Part shown: one piece after another, positions 2,860 through 41,195 of the stretch
Position numbering within the stretch: the stretch's first letter is position 1
How the letters are laid out: every line of letters begins with the position of its first letter
IMG/VR virus record: IMGVR_UViG_3300032157_000028
Coordinates: 1 to 41,195 of that record
DNA: 41,195 bases
Reading direction: 5' to 3' (one strand)
Source of the DNA: a virus
The notes under the pieces: model-generated
Databases searched by the model: none
Seen by the model: only the letters and a program-made list of their open reading frames with translations
Told to the model about the DNA's origin: nothing
Made by a program: the position numbers and the translations under genes

Positions 2860-3993
2860 CTAGCGCCGGAACAGCCAGCCGTCCAGGATCCGCTGACCAG
2901 CCGCCAGGCCCAGCGCCTCGCGCTCCGGAATCGTCAGGCCAGGCTGATTGTCATACACCAGCCGGTACGCCCTGTCCCTGGCGTTCAGCACGTCGTAGCC
3001 GCCGGTTGCCAGCGCCACCGCCGGGCTCGGCTCCACCCAGGTGGGCTGCCGCTTCGATTCGTCGGCCAGGATCTGGCCAATGGCAGACAGGTCGCCGTTG
3101 CTCTCGTAGATCATCGGCCCGTCGAACAGCCCGAACCGGATGCCGTGGTGCCGGCAGAAGGCGATATCCCAGCGCGTCCAGGTCGTGGCCGGCGGCAGGA
3201 AAAGATCGGGCCGACCGGCGCGGGTGTTCGCCGGCGGCGGCGCGTTCCCGTGCACGAAGTCAAAGGCCATCTCCGGCAGCGCGAGCGGGATGGTGACGCC
3301 AACGCGGCCCAGCGCGTCCTGCGCCAGCAGGCAGTGCACCGGCACCCATCCGGCAAGGTTGTAGACGTGGCTGCCCAGGAACTCGCACGCCGAAGTCGTC
3401 ACGCCCTCAGCCGCCCACGCCGCCAGGCGGGTGGTGATATCGGCCATGTCCGCCACGATCCCGCGGTCGGTGTGGCAGGCCCAGCGCCGGCCATTGTCCT
3501 GCAGCACCTTGATGCCCTTGCCCTCGAGCGTATGCGCCTCGGCGTCGGTGCCGCTCCAGGTGTCGGCGTTCAGGTTCATCAGCACGATCACCACGTCAAG
3601 CTCCGCGCTCAGGTGATTGCACAGCTGCTGCACGCCGAGCAGGAAGTCAGCGGTCTGCGCGGGCCCGCCCTGCACCGCAGCAAACGGATTCCAGATCACC
3701 ACGTTTTGATAGCCGCGCTCGCGGGCCTTCGACCGGCTGTTGGCCTGGCGGTCCAGCTCGGCCACGATGTTGATGCCGTTGAGCCGGTGGAAGAAGTAGG
3801 CGCCGTTCGCGTCGCCGTCCCGCAGGTCGCCCTCGTCCGTCACCTTGCTGACAATCAGCGGGTTCATGTTCGTGTTCGCCGCATCGGCGTGGATGCCGTG
3901 CGTGACGTGGCCGACCAGCTGGCTGCACACTCCCACGTCGGGATCGTAGCGGCGGCGGCTAAAGACGCGGCGAAGGAATGAAAGAAGGCCCAT
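2860..3993 (-). CDS. Hypothetical protein, possible alpha/beta-barrel enzyme (377 aa)
   Basis: I do not recognise this protein. It starts MGLLSFLRRVFSRRRY, a short hydrophobic then strongly basic N-terminus that could touch membrane or nucleic acid. The body alternates beta-strand-like hydrophobic segments (VVIWNPF, DVVIVLMNLN, WVPVHCLL, IRFGLFDGPMIYES) with helices, an order compatible with a TIM-barrel-like glycosidase fold, but no diagnostic catalytic pair is clear. It is the largest unassigned gene of the left early region. The ATG at 3993 is 14 nt after the preceding stop. A lytic or carbohydrate-active role is possible because no endolysin was found elsewhere; this is a guess. Confidence 0.75.
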   Translation of the reverse strand: MGLLSFLRRVFSRRRYDPDVGVCSQLVGHVTHGIHADAANTNMNPLIVSKVTDEGDLRDGDANGAYFFHRLNGINIVAELDRQANSRSKARERGYQNVVIWNPFAAVQGGPAQTADFLLGVQQLCNHLSAELDVVIVLMNLNADTWSGTDAEAHTLEGKGIKVLQDNGRRWACHTDRGIVADMADITTRLAAWAAEGVTTSACEFLGSHVYNLAGWVPVHCLLAQDALGRVGVTIPLALPEMAFDFVHGNAPPPANTRAGRPDLFLPPATTWTRWDIAFCRHHGIRFGLFDGPMIYESNGDLSAIGQILADESKRQPTWVEPSPAVALATGGYDVLNARDRAYRLVYDNQPGLTIPEREALGLAAGQRILDGWLFRR

Positions 3994-4007: not shown

Positions 4008-4424
4008 TCAGCTGCTGGCACGCCCGGCGCGGAAGCGCTCCACCGCCTCCACGTCGGCCAGGCGCCGCGCCGCCCGCCGGCGCTCGGCCCGCGCCAGGCG
4101 TTCGCGCTTCTCTGCCACCAGGGCGTCCAGGCGCGCCGCGTCCACCGCCGTGATCACCCAGCGCCAGGAAGTCTCCAGGCGCACCTGGTGGCGCTGGTAG
4201 TGCTCGGCCTGCAGCACCTTCTTCGGAATCCAGCCGACCATCACCCGGTCACGGTCCACGTCGCGCCGCGCCAGCGTGTGGCCGGAGTGCTTCGACCAGG
4301 CCAGGCCGGCTGGCAGCGACGGCTTCCCGTGGATCGGCGCCCAGTGCGGCGCCACCAGCGGGTCGGTCGGGCGGCCGTTCTGGCGCTTGAAGCCGGCGGC
4401 CTCGAGCTGGGCGAGCACCTTCAT
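4008..4424 (-). CDS. Hypothetical protein with basic C-terminal helix (138 aa)
   Basis: No family recognised. The N-terminal two thirds has a compact mixed composition with several Trp, and contains GRPTDPLVAPHW and RVMVGWIPKKVL. The last 45 residues form a long Arg/Ala/Glu-rich helix (RERLARAERRRAARR), which could be a coiled coil or nucleic-acid contact. The ATG at 4424 overlaps the stop of the upstream 69-aa gene (ATGA), and I preferred it over the longer open frame, whose N-terminal part is a low-quality Arg/Ala shadow of the neighbouring gene. It belongs to the early chain of coupled small genes. Confidence 0.65.
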   Translation of the reverse strand: MKVLAQLEAAGFKRQNGRPTDPLVAPHWAPIHGKPSLPAGLAWSKHSGHTLARRDVDRDRVMVGWIPKKVLQAEHYQRHQVRLETSWRWVITAVDAARLDALVAEKRERLARAERRRAARRLADVEAVERFRAGRASS

Positions 4425-7185: not shown

Positions 7186-7608
7186 CTAGGCCCGCCGGCG
7201 CCCGCGCCCGCCAGCCAGGCGCAGCGGCGGCGCCGCCTGGCCGGCCTCCGGCTCGACCGGCTCCGGAGCCACCGCAGGCGCGCCGCCCGGCCAGCCCGCC
7301 TGTAGCGCGTCCCAGCGCGCCACGGCCAGGCACCCGTCCGGCAGCCGCTCGAGCAGGCCCACCGACAGCAGCCGCTCCAGCCGCTGTTCCAGCCGCGCCA
7401 TGCGCCGCCGGTCCAGGTTCAGGTCCAGCGCCAGGTCGGCCAGCGTCCACGGCCGATCGCCCACGCGCAGCTCGCCGCGCTCATTCGCCGCCGCGGCGCG
7501 CATGAAAATCGCCCAGTAGAGCCCCTGACTTTCGTAGTCCAGGCTGCGCGTGCGTTGTGATGCCAGCCACTTCTCTGGCCAGACCTTCGCCCACGGTTTT
7601 CCTGCCAT
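7186..7608 (-). CDS. DnaD/DUF1376-like replication protein candidate (140 aa)
   Basis: The N-terminus, KPWAKVWPEKWLAS...LDYESQGLYWAIFMRAA, followed by WTLADLALDLNLDRRRM and a short winged-helix region with LLSVGLLERL, resembles the N-terminal domains of phage replisome organisers and DUF1376 proteins, which bind origin DNA or load helicase. The C-terminal 35 residues are a Pro/Gly/Arg-rich tail. ATG 7608 has GGAGG 8 nt upstream. The phage has no polymerase or helicase of its own that I can see, so an adaptor to the host replisome would make sense. Assignment rests on pattern, not on a signature residue. Confidence 0.5.
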   Translation of the reverse strand: MAGKPWAKVWPEKWLASQRTRSLDYESQGLYWAIFMRAAAANERGELRVGDRPWTLADLALDLNLDRRRMARLEQRLERLLSVGLLERLPDGCLAVARWDALQAGWPGGAPAVAPEPVEPEAGQAAPPLRLAGGRGRRRA

Positions 7609-8185: not shown

Positions 8186-9310
8186 TCAGCCCTGCGCCCC
8201 CGGTTCCGCTTCGGCCGGCTTCATGTCGCCGCCGCGCTCAGACAGCACCAGGCTGGCCGCCTGGATCAGCGCCACCAGCTCGTCCTTCGTGAAATCGGCC
8301 GGGCCCACGCCGCGGCCGCCGCACGCCTTGCTGATCAAGGCGTCGTAGTCCGCCTTCGTGTAGTCCTGGATCTTCGGCAGCTTCTTGCACAGGTCGGCCG
8401 CGTGCGTGCGCAGGTCGGCCATCTCCTGCTGCACCGGATCCATGCCGGCCGGTGCGCCCTTGCCGTTGTCCTTCTCCTTCGCCGCGCCGCCCGACTTCAC
8501 GGCGGCCGCGGCATCCCGCGCCTTCGTGCGCAGCTCGTCGGCCGCCTTGCGGTGCTCCGTTCCAATCTCCACTTCGGCTTCCTCCGCGTCGGCAAAGTCG
8601 CGCAGCACCGCGGCCTGATCTTCGTCCAGGCCCAGCACGTCGCTGGCCGCCAGCGCGCAGCGCACCGTGCGCATCATCGCCCGCTTCTGCGCCTGGGCCA
8701 GCAGGGTCTGTTTGATTTCCCACGGGTCCACATCGAGCACGATTTTCTCGTAGGAGTCGCCGCCCCTGGTCTGCCGCAGCTCCAGCGTGCCCATCTGTTT
8801 CTCTCGCGCCGTCGCGTACTGCGGGCTGACCGTGCGCCAGCGGTAGCGGCGCTCGCGGCTGTTCGCATTCCCCCAGGCCGAGCCGATCACCATGCCGGTG
8901 GGCACGTGCACCAGGTTGCACTTCACCGTGATGTCAAGGAAGCCGGCGTGCTGCGTGCGCTCCTGCTCCAGCACCGGCGGGTCGTAGTCCGGGCGCAGCC
9001 CGAACATCAGCATGAGCTTTTCGCCGGCGCTCTGGTAGAGCATCAGCGACTCCTTCTTCTTGCCGTCGTCGTCGCCGCCGTCGTTGCGCGAGCTCGACAG
9101 CGCGCCAGGCTTCGGCTTCTTCCCGTCCATCGTGCCGTAGTGCACGCCCGGGATCAGCACTTCCTGCAGCAGCTTCTGGATCTGGCCAGCCTGCAGCTTC
9201 ACCTGGTCGGGCGACAGGATGCTGCGCGGATCCATCGCCACCACCGGGAGCAGGTCGGAAGTCCGGAGCGCGAGCGCGCCGCCGGGTGGGTTCGTTTCTT
9301 GTTGCGTCAT
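8186..9310 (-). CDS. Candidate single-strand annealing protein (374 aa)
   Basis: It probably anneals DNA strands during phage recombination, paired with the exonuclease encoded 11 nt upstream. The pattern GVHYGTMDGKKPKPGALSS, then QSAGEKLMLMFGL, followed by LDITVKCNLVHVPTGMVIGSAWG and KQTLLAQAQKRAMMRTVRCAL...SDVLGLDED, matches a phage family of RecT/Erf-like recombination proteins (residues about 45-235). The C-terminal third is low-complexity and then helical. Starts MTQQ at ATG 9310, preceded by AAACCC rather than a ribosome site, as in the exonuclease gene. Assignment is from order and motif layout; another ssDNA-binding role is possible. Confidence 0.6.
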   Translation of the reverse strand: MTQQETNPPGGALALRTSDLLPVVAMDPRSILSPDQVKLQAGQIQKLLQEVLIPGVHYGTMDGKKPKPGALSSSRNDGGDDDGKKKESLMLYQSAGEKLMLMFGLRPDYDPPVLEQERTQHAGFLDITVKCNLVHVPTGMVIGSAWGNANSRERRYRWRTVSPQYATAREKQMGTLELRQTRGGDSYEKIVLDVDPWEIKQTLLAQAQKRAMMRTVRCALAASDVLGLDEDQAAVLRDFADAEEAEVEIGTEHRKAADELRTKARDAAAAVKSGGAAKEKDNGKGAPAGMDPVQQEMADLRTHAADLCKKLPKIQDYTKADYDALISKACGGRGVGPADFTKDELVALIQAASLVLSERGGDMKPAEAEPGAQG

Positions 9311-14368: not shown

Positions 14369-15306
14369 TCCGCCTCCGCGCCGTCGCCTTCCTGGTCGTG
14401 CGCGTCACCCAGCGCCCTGTCCTGCGCGCTCGGCTCGTCCGGCGGCTTCACGTCCCAGCCGGCCGGCACGTCGGCGGTATGCAGTTCGCCGGCGTGCGCT
14501 TCCTCGATCGTCCGAATGATCGCGCTCACGTTGGACAGCACCGCCGACGCCTGCTGGTATTCCTCGTCCACCAGCTTCTCCGGCAGTGGGCTCACCAGCT
14601 GGACCGACCGCAGCGCATTCAGCACGCGCTGCCAGGTCACGGGCGGCACGTCGGTGCCCGGCAAGAAATAGAGCCCGCAATCCTGAGTGTAGGTCGGCTG
14701 CGCCAGGTCCGCGTCCGGGCCGAACTTGATCACCGGATTCTCGCGCAGGTGGACCGCCACGGCCGCGAAAGCGGCAGCCGGATCTTCGCCGCTGATCGTG
14801 ACCAGGCCGCCAGCATTCTGTAGGATCAGCTGCGCGCCGACCTGCGCCGGCTCACCGAACGGCAGCGGCGGCGTTTCACTCGGCAGCTTTTCTTCGTCGT
14901 ACTGCTGGAACTCCACCGTGAGCGTGCCGCCGCCGAAGTCCAGGTGCTGCAGCAGAATGCTCATCAGCGAGTGCAGGTTCGGCTGATCGTCGGCCACGCG
15001 CACCTGCATCGTGATGCGCGAAATGCCGCCGTCCTCCTTCGGCGGTTTGACATTCGCGCCGCCGACGCGGGCGTGCCCGGCCCACTCGCCGGCGCGCCCA
15101 GCGTTCACCTTCATGCGGCAGGCGCGCCGCTGCAGGTGCGGCACGTTGGCCATCAGCGTGTGCAAGTCCTCGTTTGCCAGGCCCTTGGACAGCTCGAGCG
15201 TCAGCGTGCCGGCGTCCTTGTGTTCTTCGCTGCCGTCGTTTTCTCCCGGCGCGAGCGGCGTCAGCTTGACGCTGCCCAGGCTCATGTAGGCGGTGACCTC
15301 GATCAA
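14365..15306 (-). CDS. Hypothetical protein coupled to the SMC-like ATPase (313 aa)
   Basis: No family recognised. The first 150 residues look beta-rich (VTAYMSLGSVKLTPL, TLTLELSKGL, ISRITMQVRVAD, GTLTVEFQQYDEE) and the rest is mixed, with a C-terminal acidic tail. The start is TTG at 15306, overlapping the ATPase stop (TTGA); ATG at 15285 is an alternative. The close link to the ATPase suggests the two act together, as partner subunits do in other RecF/SbcCD-like systems, but no nuclease motif is visible. Confidence 0.65.
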   Translation of the reverse strand: MIEVTAYMSLGSVKLTPLAPGENDGSEEHKDAGTLTLELSKGLANEDLHTLMANVPHLQRRACRMKVNAGRAGEWAGHARVGGANVKPPKEDGGISRITMQVRVADDQPNLHSLMSILLQHLDFGGGTLTVEFQQYDEEKLPSETPPLPFGEPAQVGAQLILQNAGGLVTISGEDPAAAFAAVAVHLRENPVIKFGPDADLAQPTYTQDCGLYFLPGTDVPPVTWQRVLNALRSVQLVSPLPEKLVDEEYQQASAVLSNVSAIIRTIEEAHAGELHTADVPAGWDVKPPDEPSAQDRALGDAHDQEGDGAEAE

Positions 15307-16691
15307 GACGCCACCTCCTGGTCCGCAGCCGGCGCAGCCGCAGCGTCGCCGCCCTTCACCAGGCCGTCCTCCAGGTACACGCCCGGGCCCGCCGGCGTGT
15401 TGCTGACGCGCTCCAGGAACACCAGCCAGCCCTTGCTGCGCGCCTTCTGCGTGAGCATCCCCAGGTGCGCGTCGTCCAGATCATTCCCGGCGTGCACCAT
15501 CAGGGAGCGGATCTGCGCCGGCTTCGCCATCGCCAGGTCGGTGCAGGCCAGCAGGCACTCCGCCGTGCTGCCTTGCGTCCAAGGCTTGCCCTTCAGCGTC
15601 AGGCTCTGCGTTTCCGGGTCGTAGCCCATGCCCTCGTGCGGCCACGTCACCGCGGCCAGGGCGTCGAGCCGCTGCTGGCGCAGGCGCTGCACTTCGGAGT
15701 CGTGCTGCTGGTGCGTGATCTTCAGGCTGTCCAGCTCCATCGCGGCGCGGTCGGCGGCCTGGCGCTTCGTGTACGCCTCGTTCTTCTCCTTCGCGCCGGC
15801 CAGCTGCTGGCGGATCGCGGAGCCGTCCGGTTCCGGCGTGCTGTTGAGCACGGCCTGCGCCGACTCCAGCGACTCACGCGCCTGCGTGTGCTTCAGCGCG
15901 GCGTCGCGCACTTCATTCTCGGCGCGGTGCAGCGCGGCCAGCGCTTCCTCCGCCGCCTTCTGCGCCCGCTGGAACGTGGCCGCCGCCTGCGCCACGGCCT
16001 GATCGCGCTGCGCAATCTCGCGCACCAGAGCCGCACGATCGGCGGTGGCCCGCGTCAGATCGGAAAGCTGCTCGGCCAGCGCGGTGGTGTCCACCGGCGC
16101 GTCGGGCGCACCAGCGGCCTGCTCCTGCATCACCTTCAGCGCGCCCTCGCGCTGCGCCACGTCGCGCCCGCTGTCGCGTCGGCGCTGCTCCGCGATTTCC
16201 AGCAGGCTCGCGTGCTTGGCCAGGTCCAGCGGCACGTCCACCAGCTCGAGCGCCTGCTGCGCCAGATCCTGCGGCCGCAGGCGCATCATCGCCACCGGGT
16301 CCGCCGATTGGCTCACCATTTTCTCCAGCACCTCGAGCGGGCGCGGGTACTTCGCACCGTCAGCGCGGGTCAGCGTGAACGTGGTGCGAGTGCGGTCGGC
16401 CGGGTCGGTCCAGATCCGGCGCGCCACCAGCTGGTCCTTGCCGCGCCCGATTGTCAGGCGAATCTCGGCGCGGTCTGCGCCTTCGTGAATCGGCTGCTCC
16501 GGCAGTTTGCCGTAGCCCAGCGCGATCGCGATTGCGTGCAGCAGCGTGCTCTTGCCCTGCTCGTTCGGGCCGCGCACCTGCATCACGCCGGCCTCGTCGA
16601 ACGTGAGTTCGACCAGCTGCAGGCGCTTGAAGTTTTCTACGTGCACGCCGACCAGCGGCGTGGATGAATCGGTTTCGGGTTGTTGCGTCAT
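15303..16691 (-). CDS. SMC/RecF/SbcC-like AAA ATPase (462 aa)
   Basis: An ABC-type ATPase of the DNA-repair kind. The N-terminus has VENFKRLQLVELTF (the usual entry strand), then Walker A GPNEQGKST at 41-49. Residues about 150-345 form a long heptad coiled coil. The C-terminal lobe has SLMVHAGNDLDDAHL where Walker B should be; the classical DE pair is degenerate, as in several phage relatives. At 462 aa it is much shorter than cellular SbcC or RecN. ATG 16691 begins MTQQ and is the first gene left of the presumed origin. A role in recombination-dependent replication or end processing with the exonuclease is likely. Confidence 0.8.
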   Translation of the reverse strand: MTQQPETDSSTPLVGVHVENFKRLQLVELTFDEAGVMQVRGPNEQGKSTLLHAIAIALGYGKLPEQPIHEGADRAEIRLTIGRGKDQLVARRIWTDPADRTRTTFTLTRADGAKYPRPLEVLEKMVSQSADPVAMMRLRPQDLAQQALELVDVPLDLAKHASLLEIAEQRRRDSGRDVAQREGALKVMQEQAAGAPDAPVDTTALAEQLSDLTRATADRAALVREIAQRDQAVAQAAATFQRAQKAAEEALAALHRAENEVRDAALKHTQARESLESAQAVLNSTPEPDGSAIRQQLAGAKEKNEAYTKRQAADRAAMELDSLKITHQQHDSEVQRLRQQRLDALAAVTWPHEGMGYDPETQSLTLKGKPWTQGSTAECLLACTDLAMAKPAQIRSLMVHAGNDLDDAHLGMLTQKARSKGWLVFLERVSNTPAGPGVYLEDGLVKGGDAAAAPAADQEVAS

Positions 16692-16739
16692 GGGTATGCC
16701 AGCTGTGCCAGCATCGGCAGGCTACGGTCTGGGCTTGAT

Positions 16740-16772
16740 CGGATTCCAGGGAAAACCCGAAAGGGGAATCCG
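16740..16772. repeat. Inverted repeat, 8-bp arms
   Basis: CGGATTCC at 16740-16747 and GGAATCCG at 16765-16772 are exact inverted copies, with a 17-nt centre that itself holds GGGAAAACCC. It lies in the leader of the ATPase gene and could be an operator, an RNA hairpin or part of the origin. Confidence 0.6.
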
Positions 16773-16843
16773 TCACCGTGCACGGCCAGGACCACGCGGG
16801 CCTCCTACTCTTAATCTTCTTCTTAGTCTTTATCTGAGCGCGA

Positions 16844-16872
16844 TTGACGGTCCTAAGTCCTTACGGCATAAG
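16844..16872 (+). promoter_or_regulatory. Possible sigma70-type promoter for the DnaA-like gene
   Basis: TTGACG (16844-16849) and CATAAG (16867-16872) are 17 bp apart. The -35 is good; the -10 matches the consensus only partly. It points toward the DnaA-like gene and would place the DnaA boxes in the leader, allowing self-regulation. Confidence 0.35.
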
Positions 16873-16940
16873 GGCCGAGCGTCCGCGAAAGGCAACCGAT
16901 TGCCGTCAATCTGCTGGCATTCTGCTGCCAATCGGTCAAG

Positions 16941-17023
16941 TTCTCCACGGGCTCTGCCAGGTTTTCCACAAAAAAGGCTGAGTTTTCCACAATGTAAACG
17001 GGCGTTTGATCGCCTGTTGATAA
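16941..17023 (+). promoter_or_regulatory. Cluster of four DnaA-box-like sites
   Basis: TTCTCCACG at 16941-16949, TTTTCCACA at 16962-16970 and TTTTCCACA at 16983-16991 are spaced exactly 21 bp apart, two helical turns, so they face the same side of the helix. TGTTGATAA at 17015-17023 is the inverse of TTATCAACA, another known box form. The E. coli consensus is TTATNCACA, and TTTTCCACA is used in cyanobacteria. The sites end 36 bp before the DnaA-like start codon. Confidence 0.7.
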
Positions 17024-17059
17024 CTTGAGGAAGGCGCCGGGAACCAACAGGATATCCCC

Positions 17060-17365
17060 ATGCCTGACCCGTCCCATCTCCTCACCCCCAACCGCGTCCT
17101 GGATGCCTGCGCTGCGGCCACCGGCGTGACGGTTTCCCGCATGGTCACGAAACGGCGCAGCCACTCCCTGGTCGAAGCCCGCCAGCTCGCCATGTTCCTG
17201 CTGCGCGAGCTCACCGACCTGTCGCTGCCGGAAGTCGGCGCGCTGCTCGGCGGCCGCGATCACTCCACCGTGGTGTACGGGATCCGCTGCGTGCGCACGC
17301 GCATGGCCGCCGATCCCATCTTCAGCGCCCACGTGGATCAGGTGCGCGCCGCCTGCCTGGTCTGA
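17060..17365 (+). CDS. Stand-alone DnaA domain IV protein (101 aa)
   Basis: This is the DNA-binding domain of the chromosome initiator DnaA without its ATPase and oligomerisation domains. KRRSHSLVEARQLAMFLLRELTDLSLPEVG (31-60) is followed by LLGGRDHSTVVYG (62-74). GGRDHST carries the Asp-His-Thr type residues that read the DnaA box in cellular DnaA, and the basic KRR precedes the contact helix. It is the only gene on the plus strand. DnaA-box-like sites end 36 bp upstream, and a terminator for opposing genes follows directly. It could mark the phage origin, recruit host DnaA or helicase, or block the host origin. It cannot hydrolyse ATP. Confidence 0.9.
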   Translation: MPDPSHLLTPNRVLDACAAATGVTVSRMVTKRRSHSLVEARQLAMFLLRELTDLSLPEVGALLGGRDHSTVVYGIRCVRTRMAADPIFSAHVDQVRAACLV

Positions 17366-17403
17366 CAAAAGAAAACCGCGGCGCCCAACCACAAGCGCCG
17401 CGG
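17366..17403 (-). terminator. Intrinsic terminator of the late gene block
   Basis: On the minus strand, CCGCGGCGC and GCGCCGCGG form a perfect 9-bp GC stem (17376-17384 with 17395-17403) around a 10-nt loop, followed by TTTTCTTTTG. It lies right after the last late gene and abuts the stop of the oppositely oriented DnaA-like gene, protecting the origin region from late transcription. Confidence 0.9.
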
Positions 17404-17426
17404 CCCATGCCCAAATCCGCAGACCG

Positions 17427-17909
17427 CTAAACGGTCCTCGATCGCGGCGTACTTCGGCCCGTCACGGCCTTGCGCGCCAGCCCGCCGGCGCCCTTGCTGG
17501 GCATCCCGCGCCAAGCCAGATCCACGCCGAGCTGCCCGGCCATGATCATCAGAAGGTTCAGCCAGGCAGGGTTCCCGCCTTCGTCCTCCTGCTCGCGCAG
17601 CAGCGCCAGCGCCTCCTGCACGTCCTTGTTCGCTTCGGCCACCGCCGACACCTGCGCGGCCAGGCGCTCGATCAGCTCCGGCGTCACGCCGTCCGCCTTG
17701 ACCGCCGCCTGCAGCGCCAGCATCTCGGCCACCGTCGCTTCGTACTTCGCCCGCGCCTCGTCCAGCTGCTCCACGGCAGCCGGGTCTGGCTCGCCGCCGG
17801 CGCCCAGCAGGTCGCACGCGCCCAGGGCCATCACCATCAGAAGGAACGGAACGGCCAGCAGCGCGATCGGGTTGCGCCAGCCGGGCGCTCGGGAGTCGGG
17901 GTGTTTCAT
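17427..17909 (-). CDS. Putative membrane lipoprotein (160 aa)
   Basis: The N-terminus has a hydrophobic span (IALLAVPFLLMVMAL) ending in LGAC, a reasonable lipobox with Cys 32. A long acidic helical region follows (VEQLDEARAKYEATVAEML, ELIERLAAQVSAVAEANKDVQEALALL), then a second weak hydrophobic segment (WLNLLMIMAGQLGVDL) and a basic tail. Last gene of the late unit, after a membrane protein. A lipoprotein with a coiled coil at the end of the late genes could be a spanin subunit or an exclusion factor. No ribosome site is obvious before ATG 17909. Confidence 0.65.
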   Translation of the reverse strand: MKHPDSRAPGWRNPIALLAVPFLLMVMALGACDLLGAGGEPDPAAVEQLDEARAKYEATVAEMLALQAAVKADGVTPELIERLAAQVSAVAEANKDVQEALALLREQEDEGGNPAWLNLLMIMAGQLGVDLAWRGMPSKGAGGLARKAVTGRSTPRSRTV

Positions 17910-39510: not shown

Positions 39511-41137
39511 GGGTGCTCCAGTCCTCTGCATTGTCACCAGCCACGCCCACCTGTTCCAGCGCTAAATGCGCGTAGGCCAGGCTGTGGCCGTAGTGGTCTG
39601 GCCCGTTGCTGGACCAGAAGGTGCGCAGGTTGCCGTCCGCCGTCGTTTCGGTCTGGCGCTGGAGCGCGGCGCAGTGCTCAAGCGCCTGCACGTCCAGATC
39701 CTGCGCATACACGATCGTGCCGGTGCCGAGCCCTCCCACCACCGCGTTCAACAGTTCGGTGCGCTGCGCGATCACCTGCGGTCCGTCCGGCGCCTCATTG
39801 TCCCACTTCACCCGGCCCTTCATATTCTCGCTGTAGTAGCAGAGCCAGGCGCTGACGCCGCGATCCCAGAGCTCACGCTGCAGCTTGCGGCTGGATTCGG
39901 TGTTGGGCTGCGCGTCAATCACCACCGCGCCAACCTGGTACTCGGCCAGGCGCACCGCAATCTGCGTGGTGTCCGCGCTGTGCTCGGCGTGCAGCACCAC
40001 CTCACGTTTCAGGTCGTCATGCAGGGCCAGCACGGTCAGGTAGTGGCCGCGCACTCCAGCGTCCACGCCGGCCGCGATCTGCGGCGCCAGGCGCGGTCCA
40101 CGCCGCTCCGCCGCTGCGCGCTGGTGCAGCTTCAGCAGCTCGACCGAAAGGCTGTAGCCCTTCTCCGCGAACGGCAGCCCCAGCTTGCCGTTGTGAAACG
40201 CCTTCATCACCAGCGGGTCCGGGTCGGCCTGGGCGCGATCGTGCGCCTCCAGCACCGCGTCCCAGCTCATGCGCGTGGACAGCAGCCCGCTGATATGCCA
40301 GCTCGGGTAGAGCCCGTGCGGGTTGGTCGCAACCCAGCGCCCGGCAGCCAGGACGGCGCGCCGCTCGCTCTGCCAGATCCGGCCAGCACAGCACCTCGAG
40401 CCGATGCTGGCGCCGCGGGCCGCGTCGCGCTGCACGTTCAGGGTTTCGCTCTGGCCCACGCCCACCACCCAATCCAGCACGGTCCAGCCGCCGCAGCGCG
40501 GGCACGGCACCGTCCACCGCCGCTGATCGCCGCGCAGGTAGGCGTGATCAATCCCGCGGCCTGGCATTCCGGGCGTGCTCACGTCGAGCTCCCACCGCAG
40601 CCCTTCCTGCTGGCCCATCAGGCGGTCGCGGGCCATCTCGATAATCTCCGGATCGCCGGAGTCGTACTCGTCCACCGCCAGCAGATTGACCGGGCTCGAC
40701 TTCACCCCGGTGCGGCTCTGCATCCCGCGGAAGTAGGCGTTGCTGCCGTTCACCGCCACGCGGTGGCCCTTGTTATCCACCAGGCCGTGCAGGCCGGCGA
40801 TGCGCGGGCTGTTCATCACCGTGAGCTGGAACCGGCCGGCGCTGAAGTCGGTCGCTTCCTTCGCCGCCGGGAACAGGTGCATGGTGTTGAGCCCGTGGAC
40901 GTGCTGCACGTGCAGCTCGCGATTGACCAGGGTTTCGGTTTTCCCGCTCTGCGCGCTGCTCATCACCACGCCGCGCTCGGCCAGCGTGTCGTGAATCTCC
41001 CGCAGGTACTCGTACTCGTTGAAGTCCCACGGCTTCCACGGCCCGCCGGTGCTGCCGGTCGGCTGGATGCAGCGCAGGCGCTCGGCGTAGACGCTCGGCG
41101 TCCACCGCATCAGCAGCCGCTCCGCCTGGGTTAGCAC
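39488..41137 (-). CDS. terL: Terminase large subunit, GpA-like (549 aa)
   Basis: Motor and nuclease for DNA packaging. ATPase: SSAQSGKT (about 60-67, Walker A) and NLLAVDEYD (Walker B, Asp 156, Glu 157). A GpA-type zinc pair CPRCGG follows near residue 215. Nuclease region: AAGVDAGVRGHYLTVLAL (first Asp), AVVIDAQPNTES (second Asp), and DHYGHSLAYAHLAL near the C-terminus. Length is as in other GpA proteins. Start GTG 41137 overlaps the stop of the 103-aa gene through the circular junction. Lies first in the late unit. Confidence 0.95.
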   Translation of the reverse strand: MLTQAERLLMRWTPSVYAERLRCIQPTGSTGGPWKPWDFNEYEYLREIHDTLAERGVVMSSAQSGKTETLVNRELHVQHVHGLNTMHLFPAAKEATDFSAGRFQLTVMNSPRIAGLHGLVDNKGHRVAVNGSNAYFRGMQSRTGVKSSPVNLLAVDEYDSGDPEIIEMARDRLMGQQEGLRWELDVSTPGMPGRGIDHAYLRGDQRRWTVPCPRCGGWTVLDWVVGVGQSETLNVQRDAARGASIGSRCCAGRIWQSERRAVLAAGRWVATNPHGLYPSWHISGLLSTRMSWDAVLEAHDRAQADPDPLVMKAFHNGKLGLPFAEKGYSLSVELLKLHQRAAAERRGPRLAPQIAAGVDAGVRGHYLTVLALHDDLKREVVLHAEHSADTTQIAVRLAEYQVGAVVIDAQPNTESSRKLQRELWDRGVSAWLCYYSENMKGRVKWDNEAPDGPQVIAQRTELLNAVVGGLGTGTIVYAQDLDVQALEHCAALQRQTETTADGNLRTFWSSNGPDHYGHSLAYAHLALEQVGVAGDNAEDWSTHGIESEP

Positions 41138-41195
41138 GCCTGCCGCGCCAGCGCCTGGATCTGCGCGCCGACCTGGACCTGAAAGTGCTGGCGCC
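41099..41195. repeat. Right copy of 97-bp terminal direct repeat
   Basis: Exact copy of bases 1-97. It contains the GTG start of the terminase gene and the end of the gene annotated at 33-344. The duplication comes from writing a circular sequence linearly, or from terminal redundancy. Confidence 0.95.

Follow-up and report, generated by a model that had tools for sequence, protein, structure and literature searches.

The stretch of viral DNA analysed here (41,195 bp in total, referred to as the window) contains, at 16692-17365, an array of four DnaA boxes in front of a gene for a 101-aa protein, called mini-DnaA below, that consists of DnaA domain IV only. Going by its sequence, we tentatively interpret this segment as an origin-like control region read by the DnaA of the host, with which the ATPase-less phage protein would compete for the boxes while limiting its own synthesis. 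The features of the region and its borders are as follows.

15303-16691, minus strand: gene for an SbcC/Rad50-like ATPase, which leads the leftward operon and is divergent from the mini-DnaA gene (Pfam AAA_23, E 1.1e-9; phrog_1499, E 1e-52; phrog_77, SbcC-like, E 9e-7).
16806-16855, no strand: AT-rich pyrimidine tract that may serve as an unwinding element, some 90 bp to the left of the array (in the genome, only one 50-bp stretch is less stable; z 4.3).
16929-17028, no strand: least stable 100-bp stretch of the genome, holding the box array (nearest-neighbour energy, z 3.7).
16941-16949, plus strand: DnaA box 1, TTCTCCACG, degenerate, with the flank TCAAG...GGC in common with box 4 (sequence).
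16962-16970, plus strand: DnaA box 2, TTTTCCACA, fitting TTWTNCACA (pattern scan).
16983-16991, plus strand: DnaA box 3, TTTTCCACA, fitting TTWTNCACA (pattern scan).
17015-17023, minus strand: DnaA box 4, TTATCAACA, in inverted orientation, lying some 37-45 bp ahead of the start codon of mini-DnaA (pattern scan).
17060-17365, plus strand: mini-DnaA gene, 101 aa, DnaA domain IV only, with the basic loop, the helix-turn-helix and the GGRDHST signature (Pfam, solved structures, codon usage).
17373-17406, minus strand: terminator-like hairpin of 15 pairs and a T run (consensus scan only).

A preliminary description of this DNA had proposed that the protein is a DnaA domain IV without the ATPase, and this was upheld by both Pfam and structure matches. 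Residues 11-76 match Pfam Bac_DnaA_C (E 1.9e-22, 79.5 bits against a cut-off of 31.5), and the protein matches the domain IV structures of M. tuberculosis (3pvp, E 1.5e-13) and E. coli (1j1v, E 5.6e-13) and also aligns with the solved structure of B. subtilis DnaA domain IV. Bac_DnaA_C was the sole domain found, with the AAA+ ATPase domain III and the N-terminal domains absent from the 101-aa product, which places it among the phage-borne lone domain-IV proteins. In E. coli numbering, R399, L422, P423, D433, H434, T435 and T436 are the residues that we take to be the DnaA-box contacts in the domain IV-DNA structure; all are kept except T435, which is a serine (R33, L56, P57, D67, H68 and S69 in the numbering of mini-DnaA). 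The parts of DnaA for DNA opening and helicase loading lie outside domain IV. For sequence-specific binding to DnaA boxes, domain IV alone suffices (PMC5835720).

The box centres are spaced by 21, 21 and 32 bp, corresponding to 2, 2 and 3 helix turns. The three direct boxes at exactly 21 bp and the one inverted box described previously were recovered by sequence and pattern scans. The mismatch-free motif TTWTCMACA occurs three times in 41,195 bp, each time inside the array and within 62 bp. In 400 order-1 Markov simulations, it occurred on average 0.10 times per genome (maximum 2) and never as a cluster of three within 100 bp, which rules out a chance origin of the array. When one mismatch was allowed, 9 sites were found in the whole window against 5.0 expected, which is not unusual; the signal of the array is therefore one of box quality and clustering. 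The strict consensus TTWTNCACA (PMC5835720), which may not be that of the host of this phage, is matched by two of the four boxes (TTTTCCACA twice). Outer boxes 1 and 4 are degenerate, yet form a 17-nt inverted repeat through the extended sequence TCAAGTTNTCNACNGGC. The AT-rich tract noted earlier beside the boxes was also borne out, by 16929-17028 and 16806-16855, and the region thus has the low-stability DNA next to candidate initiator sites that is looked for in an origin. Of the two stretches, 16806-16855 is the candidate for unwinding.

The window is a separate virus record in which bases 1-97 are identical to 41099-41195, and because of this 97-bp direct terminal repeat the genome is very probably complete and circularly closing at about 41.1 kb. 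Terminase, head morphogenesis, protease-capsid and tail tape-measure genes are present. Codon-usage tiling of the genome placed all genes on the minus strand save 17060-17365, in line with the earlier claim that this is the sole rightward gene. The segment 16692-17365 separates the end of the leftward late genes (17427-17909) from the start of the leftward early operon (15303-16691), and 16692-17059 is the sole divergent gene boundary of the genome. The hairpin at 17373-17406, one of 2 such hairpins found in the consensus scan against 1.2 expected, would stop leftward late transcription ahead of the mini-DnaA gene. No sigma-70-type promoter was recognised by a promoter search of the 16692-17365 region. 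GC skew, which had been proposed as a check on the locus, did not change sign at 16.9 kb; it is little informative on this position because all other genes run leftward. Searches of the viral collection with the SbcC-like protein and the terminase found no close relatives of the phage, and when the DNA of the region was compared with annotated plasmids and phages, the domain-IV codons alone matched.

When most early genes were scanned with Pfam and PHROGs and the whole genome was searched for DnaB_C, neither a replicative helicase, primase or polymerase nor any known initiator was detected, which agrees with the previous statement that the phage shows no polymerase, helicase or primase. A RecE-like exonuclease is encoded, and the gene at 8186-9310 may be its annealing partner, judging from position and weak similarity. 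For phages without a helicase, primase and polymerase of their own, the route to the host replisome is often unclear, and the window offers a candidate.

A 140-aa protein encoded at 7186-7608 on the minus strand is faintly like DUF1376 or replisome-organizer N-termini. It was rejected as a DUF1376 protein or replisome organizer, with no Pfam match, a weak profile comparison and a low-confidence predicted structure (pLDDT 49).

Arrays of the same pitch were found in other viruses. At least 120 stretches of viral contigs carry three TTNTCCAC units with a pitch of exactly 21 bp, a raw count that is misleading on its own because 21-bp tandem repeats are common in coding DNA, as the scan with the reversed motif showed. 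After removal of tandem-like and coding loci, 73 of 123 DnaA-box loci were left among the matches listed, compared with 4 of 84 loci in the complete scan with the reversed motif at the same pitch; this control rules out coding tandem repeats as the source of the viral arrays. A further control with a 26-bp pitch gave no matches. The window array belongs to this class, having at least three TTNTCCAC units in non-coding DNA with unrelated spacers (identity 0.23-0.38). With a looser filter, 51 non-redundant arrays including that of the window were obtained among the matches listed, with the flank consensus AAGTTATCCACAG and with extra boxes around them mostly at 11-12 or 20-22 bp.

Some of these arrays are long. 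For example, eight boxes in a row are present at viral loci L295, L297 and L360, six at L359 and five at L257 (GC 0.70); together with L355 and L324, these are arrays on unrelated viral contigs in which a DnaA-like gene was not found. Six phased, non-coding boxes are also present in two complete microviruses, which are single-stranded DNA phages: PQ006815.1 (L362) at 4197-4312 and KT264787.1 (L363, reverse complement) at 3336-3429. Their boxes are mostly AAGTTATCCACA, at a pitch of 21-22 or 11-21 bp. No named dsDNA phages related to the array loci L263 and L295 were found, and the L295 array matched microviruses.

DnaA domain IV was found in none of the 52 other array-bearing viral records, an absence that is weaker for the records that are fragments. 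As 21-bp arrays recur in viruses without domain IV, they need no mini-DnaA and presumably use the DnaA of the host, and the window array alone most likely serves host DnaA too. That box triplets with a pitch of exactly 21 bp turn up in microviruses as well as in many unrelated viral contigs points to a recurrent means of engaging host DnaA. The genes that flank the arrays of other viruses vary and do not regularly belong to replication, so any role of the array class as such is conjectural.

Phage relatives of mini-DnaA are also widespread, with at least 394 confirmed domain-IV loci in a degenerate search, although some of the matches listed are longer DnaA-like proteins with an ATPase and not lone domain IV. 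Lone domain IV was found in named phages of Rhizobium, Bradyrhizobium, Synechococcus and Microcystis. Short domain-IV genes at 92 loci had 21 boxes in their upstream 500 bp against 32.9 expected, which rules out boxes as the usual companion of these proteins. Across 56 whole domain-IV records, pairs of boxes 21 bp apart, with two mismatches at most, were seen in 2 cases, both at chance-like sites, and perfect boxes were about as frequent as with the reversed-motif control (28 versus 24). Of the 56 records, 11 have DUF1376 genes, and in one more a replisome-organizer gene follows the domain-IV gene; such neighbours give hints of a replication role of the family. Array and domain IV thus occur apart in other viruses, and among the genomes examined the window alone combines them.

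Among the longer relatives are the DnaA-like proteins, 400-480 aa in length, of the phage contigs L172, L175, L217 and L229. They combine a P-loop ATPase with domain IV, and some apparently lack the N-terminal domain. The record CAKLQH020000026.1 (L032) is listed as an Acinetobacter phage but consists of a chromosomal dnaA-dnaN-recF-gyrB region, so it looks mislabelled.

In the reading that we tentatively prefer, host DnaA would bind the window array as it would in the other viruses that have arrays but no DnaA-like gene. The bound host DnaA would then either open the adjoining AT-rich DNA and load the host helicase, or stay held at the array. Mini-DnaA, having no ATPase, could read the same boxes and compete with host DnaA, which would limit firing or its timing at the site, and it might in addition occupy boxes at the host oriC. 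Through boxes 3 and 4 it could also repress the promoter of its own gene, a conjecture given that no sigma-70-type promoter was recognised. Later replication would be taken over by the recombination genes, namely the RecE-like exonuclease and the SbcC-like ATPase.

The preliminary description had gone further and proposed a phage origin built from the domain-IV-only protein. The anatomy does fit an origin-like control region. However, mini-DnaA as its builder was not supported, given that domain IV is missing from all 52 other array records, that phages with lone domain IV have neither a box excess nor a convincing 21-bp pair, and that the protein lacks the opening and loading parts. The alternative offered at the time, in which mini-DnaA blocks host DnaA or competes with it, is at least an equally good fit. 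The letters of the DNA do not tell an origin from a DnaA sink or an operator at the array.

In the open-access literature, with few subscription papers covered, no paper was found that describes phages with phased DnaA-box arrays or a lone phage domain IV together with an array. The novelty of the phased viral arrays and of the domain IV-array pairing is therefore provisional. In its fullest and rather less probable form, our reading would be one of phage-owned control over a host-DnaA-dependent phage origin: phased boxes would recruit host DnaA so that phage replication starts, domain IV would compete for these boxes and in this way set the time of initiation or end it, besides regulating itself, and unrelated viruses, microviruses among them, would have in such arrays a route to host DnaA that recurs and is apparently undescribed. 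Small and isolated, the candidate protein (101 aa) and the candidate sites (about 100 bp) lend themselves to direct testing.

Another possibility, which we consider unlikely, is a transcriptional switch in which mini-DnaA represses or activates divergent promoters in 16692-17059 and the boxes are operators without any role in replication. The array is indeed located in the sole divergent intergenic region, about 120 bp or less before the mini-DnaA start codon, and a pitch of 21 bp, with the boxes on one face of the helix, is typical for operators. DnaA in its full-length form also acts as a transcription factor (PMC11317965). However, several other phages place the lone domain-IV gene next to DUF1376 or replisome-organizer genes, arrays recur without any domain-IV gene, and no promoter was recognised in the region.

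It is more doubtful still that mini-DnaA mainly occupies the boxes of the host oriC and stops host replication, with the phage array being an autoregulatory site or a sink for host DnaA. The lone domain-IV proteins of the many phages without a box excess in their own genomes presumably act elsewhere, and DnaA titration on the E. coli chromosome has been reported (PMC12371093), but takeover alone leaves a precisely phased array beside low-stability DNA unexplained. That mini-DnaA is itself the initiator, forming an open complex on the array and recruiting the host replisome, is improbable, since the iteron-like layout of 21-bp direct repeats, unstable DNA and adjoining binding-protein gene and the lack of another recognised initiator are outweighed by a protein of domain IV only, by array-bearing records without domain IV and lone domain-IV phages without such arrays, and by the chance that another initiator went unrecognised (7186-7608 being vaguely DUF1376-like, though unsupported as such by Pfam, profile and structure tests).

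Compared with known systems, the closest proteins include the lone domain-IV proteins of the Rhizobium phages RHph_N28_2 and RHph_TM3_3_3, the Bradyrhizobium phages ppBeUSDA76-2 and ppBjS10J-1 and the Synechococcus phage Ssp-JY42. These, like the window, are tailed phages with Bac_DnaA_C, no AAA+ ATPase and the same signature residues; they share 25-41% identity with the window protein, but have longer N-terminal extensions and genomes without a phased box array. Domain-IV-like C-termini are also carried by TnpA-REP relatives, for which the authors suggest replication-fork targeting or a new target sequence (PMC6006769). The viral and microvirus arrays (L295, L257, L355, PQ006815.1 and KT264787.1) share with the window at least three non-coding boxes two helix turns apart, in many cases flanked by AAG and G, whereas they have no domain IV gene, mostly better boxes (TTATCCACA) and AT-richer genomes.

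In iteron origins, such as lambda O/ori and those of pSC101- and RK2-type plasmids, direct repeats at about two helix turns lie close to both unstable DNA and the binding-protein gene. The window shares the repeat spacing, the adjoining unstable DNA and the binding-protein gene, but it has the DnaA box as its repeat and, as its protein, a DnaA domain in which no helicase-recruiting part is known. The bacterial oriC/dnaA promoter region differs in having full-length DnaA and the oriC gene neighbourhood, while in both cases DnaA boxes and AT-rich DNA are located upstream of a dnaA-related gene.
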